This document shows, piece by piece, positions 30,190 through 64,000 of a DNA stretch of 64,000 nucleotides. The notes beneath the pieces were generated by a model. It was not told the DNA's origin. It did no database searches and saw only the letters and a program-made list of their open reading frames with translations. Numbering within the stretch: the first letter of the stretch is position 1; every line of letters begins with the position of its first letter. Source of the DNA: Thunnus maccoyii. Lineage: Eukaryota; Chordata; Actinopteri; Scombriformes; Scombridae. The stretch lies in contig NC_056542.1 of assembly GCF_910596095.1 (NCBI RefSeq), positions 24,754,457 to 24,818,456 on the forward strand. Reading direction: 5' to 3'. Position numbers and translations under genes: made by a program.

Positions 30190-30242
30190 GAAACTATAGA
30201 AAAATAAAGATATAATTGGACCCAATTCTCTACTGGCTTACA
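30190..30242 (+). mobile_element. Right-end fragment of the LTR-like element at the array edge
   Basis: The first 53 bp of the array are the terminal part of the LTR-like element, ending GGCTTACA before TATG at 30243-30246. Its left portion is absent because the array begins here, so the array edge lies inside an element copy. Confidence 0.7.
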
Positions 30243-30801
30243 TATGCTTTAAATAGCGATGCACATTAACAAAGACATGAAAAAGGAGGTAATTATGTCA
30301 GGCAAGTGGCAGGATAATTCACATATTTACACAGCGCAGTCATTTCAAGTGTAGGTTAGGTAATATGGACAATATTCCCTTCACAGATACTAATTAAACA
30401 CTCCAAAGAAGAACAAACCAGAAACTACTTACATTATGTCAGAAACACACACCTCATGTATTTCCTCTCTAAAGCCTGCCGCACTCCAACTGCTCAGCCT
30501 ACCCACTAATGTAGGTGCATTAATTAAACCAGCCAACAGGTGGCTGCAGCACATCTGCCAATCAGGTGACACAGTTTGTATCCAACTAATATCACAACTT
30601 GTATAGATCAATAAATGCTGAACTACCTGTTTCCACACTCCAATTACACTTTCAGCCTTTCTAACATCATATTTCAAATGATTATATGTCGTGTAGACGT
30701 CCAGTCAACCTCCACTTTTCAACAACATTTTACCCATTGATTAATTAATAGAGATCCTTTCTGATATCAGCTCAAATGTCCTCAAGATCTGACTGAACTC
30801 G

Positions 30802-30939
30802 TGACATCATCTGTGACGTAATGACAGGATGTGAATCAGCCTGTTTCAGCTCACTGATGATGTCATGGTACTAAAGTGGTAACTCCTTCTATGACATCAC
30901 ATGTGATGTCATGAGTCCACACAGGGAAGTTTATAAATA
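30802..30939 (+). promoter_or_regulatory. CRE-like cluster with TATA box (unit 1; repeated in each unit)
   Basis: Five CRE-like octamers fall within about 110 bp: TGACATCA (30802), TGACGTAA (30814), TGATGTCA (30858), and a 22-bp perfect palindrome at 30891-30912 made of TGACATCA and TGATGTCA around CACATG. TATAAATA follows at 30932-30939. The spacing is that of a TATA promoter with bZIP (CREB/ATF-like) sites, predicting a start near 30960. The module recurs in all units at about 0.6-0.75 kb from the unit start. Units 8 and 11 carry one change in the palindrome centre. Promoter activity is inference; the motifs themselves are visible. Confidence 0.5.
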
Positions 30940-59366: not shown

Positions 59367-62054
59367 GAAACTATAGAAAAATAAAGATATAATTGGACCC
59401 AATTCTCTACTGGCTTACATATGCTTTAAATAGCGATGCACATTAACAAAGACATGAAAAAGGAGGTAATTATGTCAGGCAAGTGGCAGGATAATTCACA
59501 TATTTACACAGCGCAGTCATTTCAAGTGTAGGTTAGGTAATATGGACAATATTCCCTTCACAGATACTAATTAAACACTCCAAAGAAGAACAAACCAGAA
59601 ACTACTTACATTATGTCAGAAACACACACCTCATGTATTTACTCTCTAAAGCCTGCCGCACTCCAACTGCTCAGCCTACCCACTAATGTAGGTGCATTAA
59701 TTAAACCAGCCAACAGGTGGCTGCAGCACATCTGCCAATCAGGTGACACAGTTTGTATCCAACTAATATCACAACTTGTATAGATCAATAAATGCTGAAC
59801 TACCTGTTTCCACACTCCAATTACACTTTCAGCCTTTCTAACATCATATTTCAAATGATTATATGTCGTGTAGACGTCCAGTCAACCTCCACTTTTCAAC
59901 AACATTTTACCCATTGATTAATTAATAGAGATCATTTCTCATATCAGCTCAAATGTCCTCAAGATCTGACTGAACTCGTGACATCATCTGTGACGTAATG
60001 ACAGGATGTGAATCAGCCTGTTTCAGCTCACTGATGATGTCATGGTACTAAAGTGGTAACTCCTTCTATGACATCACATGTGATGTCATGAGTCCACACA
60101 GGGAAGTTTATAAATAGACCTTCAAATCAATCAATTCATCGAGCTGAGGTCGACTAGGCTCCCTTAGATGGAAGGCGTCCTCATTCACAGCTTCAGAGGT
60201 GACCGAGTTGAGTCGCTGAAGTACCGCCAGAGAGTTTCCCGCTCTGGAGGTCAGAGTCAGCATGCAAGAACTGGGCCTTGGGAAAGCAGTGCTCGACTTG
60301 TGTGTTGAGGCCCACCTCTGAAGCTGTGATTGAGGACGCCTTCCATCTTCGTAAAAAGAAAAACCCGGGTTAGGATGGTATTCCTGGATTTGGATTCAGT
60401 CTTTGGAATATGCCCAAAGACTCCTTCTGGGGCGATTGTATTTTTCCATGGAGGAATACTTGATCACTTCCAAATTGAACTGAAGTTTAGGGAGTAAGAT
60501 GCACCTGAACTTAACCCTAATCATATTCAGATTTCCAAAGACTGAGCCCAAATTCCAAGAATACCATCCTAACCCTAAAAAAAATCGTGAGCGTATGTGT
60601 AACCCACTAGGTGCTACAGGGTAAAGAATAAAGAATATATGGACCAGGGGCTAGGTTCGTAATGGGAGGGCTGAAAAGGGAATGACAGACAAAACAGATA
60701 AATGGAGCCACGAGGAACGTTGAGGTAAGTTTACTGTACCAAGTTATAAAACATGAACATAAAATGCAGTGCAATTATCATCAGTATCTCAAGATTTCAC
60801 AGTCTTTCAGCAGAGCTTGAATTGAAAGTGTCCATGAGTGTAATGTCCCTTTAATGTCTTTGCGATATCAGTCAGCGCGCTCAAGTCAATGTTTTATGTC
60901 AAGTCAGGGGGGAAAATTCAAGTAGTCGGATGTGTGGTGGTCCTACCACACTGATACTTGAGTGAAAGCAAAAAGATATGAGGTCCTCTTCTCAGGTCTC
61001 GGTTCCTCACTCCTTAGGTTAAGAAGAGATCTCACTGGGGGCTAGCCATCTCCCATCCACAGGGAGAATCCACATCCAGTTCTCTAGTTCTCAAAAAACC
61101 CAGCCTGCATGAAGACAGGACTGTTATTTTCATGACGTCACTACTTTTCTCTAATGGCCATAGTAATATAATAATTCTCAACACATTACTGTAGCACAAT
61201 AATGATTAAATGAATTCTCTCTTTTAACCGTACAGTTGTTTTGTTTTGTTTTATCTCAATGTATTTCCCACATTTTATACATTTTTATCAACCTTTTTAT
61301 ACATGAATTTAATCAACATGAATTTTAGCTGTTAACCCATGAATTATGATGTTTTAACTTTAAGTTGTAAATGAACTTATCCATCAGTTTCATCATACAA
61401 TGTATCTCAATATAACTACACACACAGTATCAAAATAAACATCATACCTTACTTCTTTTAAATGATCAGAGCAATAATATTCAGTTTTGAACTCTTAAGA
61501 TAGCTAACAGAAACAGTGAGCAGCAGTGATAAGCCAAGTTCAAGCATTTCTGGAGCACAGACACGTTTTCTGCCACCTCACACATCAACTCACAGTGTGG
61601 CTAATACAGTTAGCATGCGCTAGCGCTAATTAGCTCGGCAACTCACCAAGACGATAATGCCAAAAGTACTACTACTCCTGGCTCACGGACCCTCGCACAC
61701 CTCTGACGCATTCAGAAGAGTATTTTATCTCATGGATATGTTAATAATCGCTATTCTAACTCTCTATTTCTCATCCGCTCCGACCGCTGCTGTTTTACCC
61801 GCACTGCAACTCACTGACTTCTGCGTGAAGAGAGGGTGGGACTTAACTCCCTCTAACCAATCATAAGTTTGCTCTAGTTGATATGACAAATAAGGACTGT
61901 GTGTGTGTGTGTGTGTGTGTGTGTGTGTGTGTGTGTGTGTGTGTGTGTGTGTGTGTGTGTGTGTGTGTGTGTGTGTGTGTGTGTGTGTGTGTGTGTGTGT
62001 GTGTCAAATAAGTGATTGACAGATTGATTAACAAATGAAAATGAGATAAATAAG
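59367..62054 (+). repeat. Array unit 12 (alpha type)
   Basis: 2688 bp, the longest complete unit; GT tract 61899-62004 (106 bp); LTR-like segment 60598-62107. Partner of unit 9 (shared CAGCATGCAAG and GATAGCTAAC). Confidence 0.95.
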
Positions 62055-64000
62055 GAAACTATAGAAAAATAAAGATATAATTGGACCCAATTCTCTACTG
62101 GCTTACATATGCTTTAAATAGCGATGCACATTAACAAAGACATGAAAAAGGAGGTAATTATGTCAGGCAAGTGGCAGGATAATTCACATATTTACACAGC
62201 GCAGTCATTTCAAGTGTAGGTTAGGTAATATGGACAATATTCCCTTCACAGATACTAATTAAACACTCCAAAGAAGAACAAACCAGAAACTACTTACATT
62301 ATGTCAGAAACACACACCTCATGTATTTACTCTCTAAAGCCTGCCGCACTCCAACTGCTCAGCCTACCCACTAATGTAGGTGCATTAATTAAACCAGCCA
62401 ACAGGTGGCTGCAGCACATCTGCCAATCAGGTGACACAGTTTGTATCCAACTAATATCACAACTTGTATAGATCAATAAAAGCTGAACTACCTGTTTCCA
62501 CACTCCAATTACACTTTCAGCCTTTCTAACATCATATTTCAAATGATTATATGTCGTGTAGACGTCCAGTCAACCTCCACTTTTCAACAACATTTTACCC
62601 ATTGATTAATTAATAGAGATCCTTTCTGATATCAGCTCAAATGTCCTCAAGATCTGACTGAACTCGTGACATCATCTGTGACGTAATGACAGGATGTGAA
62701 TCAGCCTGTTTCAGCTCACTGATGATGTCATGGTACTAAAGTGGTAACTCCTTCTATGACATCACATGTGATGTCATGAGTCCACACAGGGAAGTTTATA
62801 AATAGACCTTCAAATCAATCAATTCATCGAGCTGAGGTCGACTAGGCTCCCTTAGATGGAAGGCGTCCTCATTCACAGCTTCAGAGGTGACCGAGTTGAG
62901 TCGCTGAAGTACCGCCAGAGAGTTTCCCGCTCTGGAGGTCAGAGTCAGCGTGCAAGAACTGGGCCTTGGGAAAGCAGTGCTCGACTTGTGTGTTGAGGCC
63001 CACCTCTGAAGCTGTGAATGAGGACGCCTTCCATCTTCGTAAAAAGAAAAACCCGGGTTAGGATCGTATTCCTGGATTTGGATTCAGTCTTTGGAATATG
63101 CCCAAAGACTCCTTCTGGGGCGATTGTATTTTTCCATGGAGGAATACTTGATCACTTCCAAATTGAACTGAAGTTTAGGGAGTAAGATGCACCTGAACTT
63201 AACCCTAATCATATTCAGATTTCCAAAGACTGAGCCCAAATTCCAAGAATACCATCCTAACCCTAAAAAAAATCGTGAGCGTATGTGTAACCCACTAGGT
63301 GCTACAGGGTAAAGAATAAAGAATATATGGACCAGGGGCTAGGTTCGTAATGGGAGGGCTGAAAAGGGAATGACAGACAAAACAGATAAATGGAGCCACG
63401 AGGAACGTTGAGGTAAGTTTACTGTACCAAGTTATAAAACATGAACATAAAATGCAGTGCAATTATCATCAGTATCTCAAGATTTCACAGTCTTTCAGCA
63501 GAACTTGAATTGAAAGTGTCCATGAGTGTAATGTCCCTTTAATGTCTTTGCGATATCAGTCAGCGCGCTCAAGTCAATGTTTTATGTCAAGTCAGGGGGG
63601 AAAATTCAAGTAGTCGGATGTGTGGTGGTCCTACCACACTGATACTTGAGTGAAAGCAAAAAGATATGAGGTCCTCTTCTCAGGTCTCGGTTCCTCACTC
63701 CTTAGGTTAAGAAGAGATCTCACTGGGGGCTAGCCATCTCCCATCCAAGGGAGAATCCACATCCAGTTCTCTAGTTCTCAAAAAACCCAGCCTGCATGAA
63801 GACAGGACTGTTATTTTCATGACGTCACTACTTTTCTCTAATGGCCATAGTAATATAATAATTCTCAACACATTACTGTAGCACAATAATGATTAAATGA
63901 ATTCTCTCTTTTAACTGTACAGTTGTTTTGTTTTGTTTTATCTCAATGTAAGTATTTCCCACATTTTATACATTTTTATCAACCTTTTTATACATGAATT
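62055..64000 (+). repeat. Array unit 13 (partial, beta type)
   Basis: First 1,946 bp of a unit cut by the window end. Beta markers ATAAAAGCTG, GAATGAGG, GATCGTATT, CAGAACTTG. LTR-like segment begins at 63286. The array therefore extends beyond the window by an unknown amount. Confidence 0.95.

Follow-up and report, generated by a model that had tools for sequence, protein, structure and literature searches.

A macrosatellite-type array near cck in Thunnus maccoyii, probably grown from an older repeat carrying a solo Ty3/gypsy LTR

D4Z4 is a human macrosatellite made of kilobase-scale, homogenised units arranged head to tail. For human DXZ4, PMC4199704 gives a 3-kb monomer in 50-100 copies. 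The array described here resembles both in having kilobase-scale, head-to-tail, homogenised units, but differs in that its unit is made up of an older repeat and a solo LTR, no protein gene was found in it, it counts ~16 copies, and its host is a fish. Ordinary Ty3/gypsy solo LTRs (of elements with a PNMA-type gag) share with this locus the TG...CA ends, the 4-bp target-site duplication, and a full-length relative in the same genome (RT-RNaseH-integrase); here, however, the solo LTR is built into the tandem monomers of two repeats that are unrelated to each other. Plant arrays of the Cassandra TRIM (PMC7215508) likewise consist of tandem LTR-plus-spacer units, whereas the spacer here is, as an empty site shows, an unrelated pre-existing repeat. 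The Drosophila hpRNA clusters hp-CG4068 and hp-tHMG (PMC10317233) are also tandem hairpin-forming units of similar number, whereas the hairpins of the fish array are predicted from sequence. Lastly, PMC8794818 and PMC8604942 attribute to template switching clustered changes that turn one arm of an imperfect palindrome into the complement of the other; such changes are seen here too, except that a single array holds old-style as well as rewritten arms. The birth of a macrosatellite is rarely visible; in this one genome the steps can be followed from a site still empty, through the insertion and the amplified block, to a rewritten hairpin arm and an exchange with a second array that bears the LTR. 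A literature search, limited to titles and abstract starts among the papers listed, retrieved none on a fish array of this kind; a print record may exist.

The window analysed is a stretch of 64,000 nucleotides, in which an anchor sequence repeats 13 times from position 30190 to the window end at a spacing of 2,614-2,688 bp, i.e., 12 complete units and 1,946 bp of a 13th (Table 1). The array continues for only ~7.5 kb beyond the window, for a total of ~41.3 kb, with a truncated LTR at each edge. In the one assembly from which copy number was taken, it holds 16 X segments and 15 complete Y segments, the 16th Y being cut at ~298 bp (X and Y being the two parts of the unit). Window units differ from one another by 0.00-0.65% pairwise substitution. 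Of the 500-bp bins left of position 30000, a single one, holding a microsatellite at 13500, contained any repeated 31-mer.

Table 1. Features of the array and its left flank, in window positions.
Feature	Positions	Strand	Remarks
Last coding exon of cck	24563-24787	+	Includes mature peptide; Pfam Gastrin; joined to exon in open frame from 23691
Old inverted X-X piece without LTR, array flank	29536-30176	-	~86% to unit 31024-31408, then 30241-30473
Array	30190-64000	+	12 complete units and partial 13th; runs on to ~C10:24825982
Truncated LTR end, left array edge	30190-30242	-	Last 53 bp of Y
X segment, unit 1 (older dispersed repeat)	30243-31420	+	Bounded by TATG duplication
Five CRE-like octamers: TGACATCA, TGACGTAA, TGATGTCA, TGACATCA, TGATGTCA	30802-30911	+	13/13 window units
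Putative TATA box, TATAAATA	30932-30939	+	57 bp ahead of hairpin 1 start; 13/13 window units
Hairpin 1	30989-31171	+	36-bp arms, 30989-31024 and 31136-31171
Hairpin 2, MITE-like palindrome	31190-31398	+	RNA fold z -9.2
TATG target-site duplication, one side	31417-31420		Other side 32896-32899; left edge 30243-30246
Solo LTR (Y), Ty3/gypsy, TGTAACCC...TTACA	31421-32895	-	Antisense to unit
TG microsatellite within LTR	32720-32792	+	Length varies among units

The array is of the macrosatellite type, with head-to-tail units longer than ~1 kb present in many copies at high identity, and the assembly contains its boundary on either side. The initial annotation had described a large macrosatellite downstream of cck, with ~2.65-kb units of very low divergence running past the window end. 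All of this was borne out except the size, which is moderate at ~15.6 units closed off at both ends. The neighbouring gene is real, its two joined exons matching Gastrin in Pfam (PF00918, E 1.5e-31), and its stop codon lies ~5.4 kb left of the array. An LTR-free X-X junction is also found to the right of the array, one of its sides being a 48-bp match at 79%.

That annotation had also taken the unit for a single unrecognised satellite; it is instead composite, joining an older repeat, X (~1.18 kb), to a solo LTR, Y (~1.4-1.5 kb), with an exact target duplication. X is present at no fewer than about a dozen places in the genome. Two empty X sites with a single TATG were found, at C4:16351805 (0 mismatches) and C14:19528745 (3 mismatches), and the reversed-pattern control returned 0. 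Given the X-LTR composite, the TATG duplication, and these empty sites, we consider it very likely that X is the older component, that one X copy received the LTR, and that the X-LTR block was then amplified into the bounded array on C10. In mechanistic terms, a Ty3/gypsy retrotransposon would have inserted into a monomer of the older tandem repeat X, LTR-LTR recombination would have left only its solo LTR, and the ~2.65-kb block would then have been amplified head to tail by unequal crossing-over, perhaps aided by the palindromes. Since the closest LTR-free X lies at C4:16.35 Mb (~3% away) rather than on C10, and the X pieces adjoining the array are ~13-14% diverged, the LTR may have landed first on C10 or on another chromosome.

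By its sequence, Y is a Ty3/gypsy solo LTR that entered the unit in antisense orientation and is flanked by a 4-bp target-site duplication. Its TG...CA ends are sharp, the duplications being TATG in X, AGTA in a second repeat, Z (on C4 and C14), and TAAT on C15. A full-length relative on C2, with target-site duplication AAGA, has two identical 874-bp LTRs flanking an internal region and a purine run, AAAAGGGGAGGG, ahead of the 3' LTR. Its natural open pieces match PNMA gag, RVT_1 (1e-40), RT_RNaseH_2, Integrase_H2C2, and rve, with RT-RNaseH before integrase. Relative to the C2 LTR, the long LTR in the array carries an additional ~544 bp. Y was also considered as a DNA transposon, since its termini match over 13 bp with one mismatch and its duplication is 4 bp long, but this was dropped on account of the LTR structure of the C2 copy. 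At C3:34192505, another LTR match has no other end in the expected place.

X carries CRE-like motifs, a putative TATA box, and two strong palindromes, in agreement with the promoter-like motifs first noticed inside the unit. No shuffle out of 2000 exceeded 2 CRE-like octamers per 120 bp, for a pattern that was picked after the sequence was read. A TATA-like sequence is also found in three of the four older X copies aligned. The arms of hairpin 1 (RNA fold z -11.2) are perfect in 7 of the 13 window units and carry one mismatch in the other 6. The C2 and C14:19.5 Mb copies of X have hairpin 2 in inverted orientation. In 14 of the 16 units on C10, the 5' palindrome arm has been rewritten toward the complement of the 3' arm, the old-style arm being kept in the two edge units and in the C14 copy. 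This rewriting fits template switching, by which the arms would have been perfected during replication.

These features raise the possibility of a hairpin-RNA gene cluster, in which the X promoter would drive a hairpin transcript yielding small RNAs, as in Drosophila, where D. simulans has 13 tandem hpRNAs in ~27 kb and D. melanogaster has hp-CG4068 in 20 tandem copies (PMC10317233). Promoter-like motifs do occur in every window unit, long complementary arms lie within the predicted transcript, the stretch downstream of the predicted start folds with z -12.8, and the hairpin core (31025-31135) is 85.5-91.9% identical in five older copies versus 57.7-84.1% for the remainder of those copies. However, that remainder includes the inverted hairpin 2 loop and indel-rich bins, which largely cause its low identity, and the left-half bins match the core in conservation, at 78-95%, 80-91%, and 91-95% for three of the copies; we therefore did not count purifying selection on the core as shown. 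Moreover, a search for complementary target genes elsewhere with the 25-nt arm core, a pattern that covers one part of the duplex and also misses older, more mismatched X copies, gave 37 matches at up to 3 mismatches; 36 are X copies, and the remaining one, on C7, differs at 3 positions. The homogenised arms have a neutral explanation as well, and no Rfam family reaches its gathering score within the window, which also set aside an RNA gene array. We thus regard a hairpin-RNA cluster as unlikely. It is improbable, too, that the array is a vertebrate source of double-stranded RNA whose arms are near-perfect because the RNA is used. The X promoter would read the hairpin rightward and the LTR points left into the adjoining X, and transcription could accordingly converge in every unit; the use may be, e.g., germ-line silencing of X copies and of the retrotransposon family.

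Other candidate products were tried and rejected. For a conserved open frame in X, inspection by eye found stops in at least one old copy for two of the three plus frames, and the third, though open, is shifted in the C1 copy. For a protein-coding unit, the six frames of one unit matched no Pfam family above the cut-off (best E 0.034). Hairpin 2 drew only weak matches to the miRNA models MIR2630 and MIR2670 (E 0.019-0.07; 22.6-26.2 bits, cut-offs 144 and 117). A tRNA scan with bacterial settings, a comparison of one unit with phage and plasmid collections, and one hairpin pattern each against viral and bacterial collections found nothing, and a bacterial promoter/terminator scan was close to background. 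We think it most likely that the array serves no selected function in its own right.

The same LTR is present in a second, unrelated repeat array, Z, on C4, and a locus on C14 has X between two LTRs of the Z type. In the X tree (18 rows, excluding a partial X from C4), the C14 X groups with C10 edge units 15 and 16 (support 100/99), whereas in the LTR tree (23 rows, TG tract removed), both C14 LTRs beside X group with Z-type LTRs (support 100/99). Because the two trees disagree, we infer that LTR homology moved material between arrays; LTR-homologous recombination would have carried an X, in one direction or the other, between C14 and the C10 lineage, e.g., as an excised X-LTR circle. At the sites separating C10 from C14 copy 1, the C14 LTRs are patchy: resemblance to C10 is confined to alignment columns 651-708 in LTR 3 and to columns 722-743, 991-995, and 1547 in LTR 2. 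A single crossover would give longer C10-like tracts than these patches, and later conversion must therefore be added. The search for Z sites lacking the LTR returned 0 within 3 mismatches, so the order of events is not demonstrable for the second array. If LTR homology does pass array units between chromosomes, solo LTRs would be a route for seeding satellites.

The LTR-X-LTR order, together with the AGTA on both sides of the C14 block, which gives it the look of an insertion, could also suggest a small non-autonomous element of the TRIM/Cassandra type, with X as its internal domain and arrayed by LTR recombination, as Cassandra forms tandem arrays in plants (PMC7215508). Yet X is found free of any LTR, both as tandem copies and at scattered places, and is bounded by the TATG duplication, and its sequences beside the LTR are, by eye, unlike the start of the C2 internal region and the purine run, i.e., X is not an internal domain with a primer-binding site (PBS) and purine run. 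The LTRs of the Z repeat occupy the same AGTA site, which is thus most simply older than X at C14. A TRIM origin is very unlikely, and insertion of an LTR into an older X remains our preferred reading.

The units themselves differ at 31 variable columns, one of them within the TG tract, whose pure TG runs span 34-106 bp across the 12 complete units. They alternate between two types, A and B, with unit 10 a hybrid of the two, and units 8 and 11 as well as 9 and 12 form near-identical pairs. That the assembler inflated one or a few real units is very unlikely: there is but one assembly, and units 9 and 12 are identical outside the TG tract, but unit-specific variants, the mosaic and alternating unit types, and the differences in TG length point to real unequal exchange rather than assembler stutter, and both ends of the array are contained in one 34.9-Mb contig.

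When one unit of the array was matched against other stretches of the same genome, it split cleanly into two parts, X, an older dispersed repeat of ~1.18 kb with two palindromes, and Y, an LTR. The unit, which the initial annotation could not recognise as a described satellite, is thus better described as X plus a solo LTR. Y starts with TGTAACCC and ends with TTACA, and identical ends are found at other loci with different neighbours. Its flanking duplications read TATG in X, AGTA in Z (an unrelated repeat on contigs C4 and C14 that hosts the same LTR), and TAAT on contig C15. 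Y-free X-X junctions with a single TATG are present at C4:16351805 (0 mismatches) and C14:19528745 (3 mismatches), and a reversed control pattern for this junction retrieved no match in the genome. The sharp ends, the flanking duplications, and the Y-free sites with a single TATG together show that Y inserted into X. Searching the genome for the hairpin segment of X placed it at ~12 locations on seven contigs, array included; copy counts from these searches are lower bounds. The assembly comprises 782 Mb in 54 contigs and represents one individual, and all positions follow it; the window corresponds to C10:24754457-24818456.

Parts of the repeat unit and an X-derived piece beside the array (window positions)
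Feature	Position	Basis or location
X	30243-31420	genome comparison
Y	31421 to base 53 of next unit	genome comparison
Old inverted X piece	29536-30176	left of array

Two copies of the first 420 bp of Y lie 7.58 kb apart on contig C2, within 874-bp LTRs that do not differ at any base. The outer flanks of this element carry AAGA on both sides, and a purine run precedes the second LTR. Between the LTRs are four natural open pieces with matches to PNMA-type gag, aspartyl protease (a weak match, below the cut-off), reverse transcriptase, and RNaseH plus integrase. The order gag-protease-RT-RNaseH-integrase is that of Ty3/gypsy elements. The outer parts of Y are 96.9-99.8% identical to the C2 LTR, and Y holds ~544 bp absent from it. 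The full-length element with its identical LTRs and the match of Y to them thus indicate that Y, which points left in the array, is a solo LTR and that its family is young. The C2 element spans C2:5746414-5754870 (stretches L035, L036, L039, and L040) and reads as a young Ty3/gypsy element with the target site duplication AAGA. Inside the array LTR, a splice-donor-like GAGGTAAGT occurs on the plus strand at window 31545-31553 in every one of the 13 window units. A minus-strand donor-like site, plus-strand ACTCACCAA, is present in all 12 complete units.

The head-to-tail ~2.65-kb units reported initially are present: 13 unit starts lie in the window, the first at 30190 and spaced by 2,614-2,688 bp, giving 12 full units plus 1,946 bp of a thirteenth. 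Differences had been described as scattered substitutions only; the unit-to-unit divergence is 0-0.65%, with 31 variable alignment columns, of which one falls within the TG tract. Two unit types, separated by several sites, largely alternate from unit 4 on, and unit 10 is a hybrid whose left side is of type A and whose right side is of type B. The pairs 8/11 and 9/12 are nearly identical and share variants absent from the other window units, and pure TG tracts range from 34 to 106 bp among 12 units. Given the unit types, the hybrid, the shared-variant pairs, and the TG-length differences, this variation is a footprint of unequal exchange rather than of an assembler repeating one block. The array does run past the window, as claimed, for fewer than 3 further units; the whole spans ~41.3 kb with 16 X segments, 15 whole Y copies, and a sixteenth Y that stops after ~298 bp, near C10:24825982.

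The same LTR recurs in both orientations along ~180 kb of contig C4, with at least 21 matches in one search and at least 18 in another. This second array, at 3.65-3.83 Mb (L011-L014, L018-L021, and L030-L032), consists of tandem Z plus solo LTR. Units measure 3.6-4.2 kb in the runs read, longer gaps separate the runs, and many of the LTRs are without their first 58 bp. The four C4a units each have a Z part of 2,478 bp, with an identity of 99.6% or more to that of the first. No LTR-free Z site was found in the genome within 3 mismatches. A long Z unit on C14 contains a Tc1/mariner-type transposase in a 326-aa open frame (L015:7386-8363; HTH_Tnp_Tc3_2, 1.1e-12; DDE_3 just below the cut-off).

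At one Z-type site on C14, LTR-X-LTR stands in place of the single LTR, flanked on the outside by Z with AGTA and on the inside by X with TATG. Its X clusters with units 15 and 16 at the edge of the C10 array, and both its LTRs cluster with Z-type LTRs (tree support 100/99 in each case). These LTRs also hold short C10-like tracts, with a changeover near columns 708-722 plus further patches. Judging from the sequences, the disagreement between the X and LTR trees, together with the C10-like tracts, implies that LTR-LTR recombination must have occurred. A templated double exchange may have produced the LTR-X-LTR arrangement. The best explanation of the locus is that a circle of X plus LTR entered a Z-LTR through homologous recombination, a transfer between C10 and C14 that could have run in either direction, and that later conversion would account for the patchy LTRs.

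The first palindrome of X, at 30989-31171, has 36-bp arms; they pair perfectly in 7 of the 13 window units, with one mismatch in the other 6. No perfect inverted repeat of at least 20 bp within 400 bp occurs in the leftmost 30.2 kb of the window. The predicted RNA folding is much stronger than that of shuffles, with z -11.2 for this hairpin and z -12.8 for the stretch with both hairpins. Arms are imperfect in the older X copies on C2 and C15, where 25-29 of the 38 aligned positions match, and the copy on C1 is missing most of the 5' arm. Among the C10 units, 15 and 16 retain an old-style 5' arm, as does the C14 copy. In C10 units 1-14 and in the two C4:16.35 Mb copies, the 5' arm has been rewritten so as to approach the complement of the 3' arm, with a further change in one of the C4 copies. 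Because the rewritten arm ends in a different way on C4 and on C10 (A or T at 31007), two rewriting events are suggested. Full pairing in the A-type C10 units stems from a change at 31153 in the opposite arm, which may be independent of the rewriting, since unit 16, with its old-style 5' arm, has it too. Template switching is known to produce arm changes of this kind (PMC8794818), and it works without selection. Hairpin 2, the MITE-like palindrome, has the opposite orientation to the remainder of X in L025 (C2:38.636-38.639 Mb) and L027 (C14:19.528 Mb), an expected outcome of exchange between palindrome arms.

Hairpin core identity across five older copies is 85.5-91.9%, versus 57.7-84.1% for the rest, a low figure that includes the inverted loop and indel-rich bins; well-aligned left-half bins equal the core. 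No clear arm-core target was found outside X within 3 mismatches, 36 of 37 matches being X copies. With no such target and left-half bins as conserved as the core, an RNA role for the hairpin seems possible, not likely. The internal promoter-like motifs noted initially are borne out by five CRE-like octamers, which in each of the 13 window units begin 28-130 bp before the putative TATA box TATAAATA; none of 2,000 shuffles had more than two such octamers in 120 bp, the motif having been picked after the sequence was read. A TATA-like sequence is present in three of four older aligned copies (C2b, C15, and C1) and absent in C2a. A perfect palindrome, ATGACATCACATGTGATGTCAT, lies just ahead of the TATA box at window 30891-30912 in 11 of 13 window units.

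The nearby hormone gene had been correctly named cck (Gastrin match, E 1.5e-31). Right of the array are a ~5.8-kb minisatellite and then another old inverted X piece; the minisatellite runs from L009:7590 to L010:3354, mainly as 26- and 33-bp units with CCTTTGTGATGTAACA. Left of the array, a 59-bp inverted repeat (28607-28665/28853-28911; 80%) possibly marks the ends of a small transposon, and window 13058-13258 holds a palindromic MITE-like element of ~200 bp that is 72% self-complementary.
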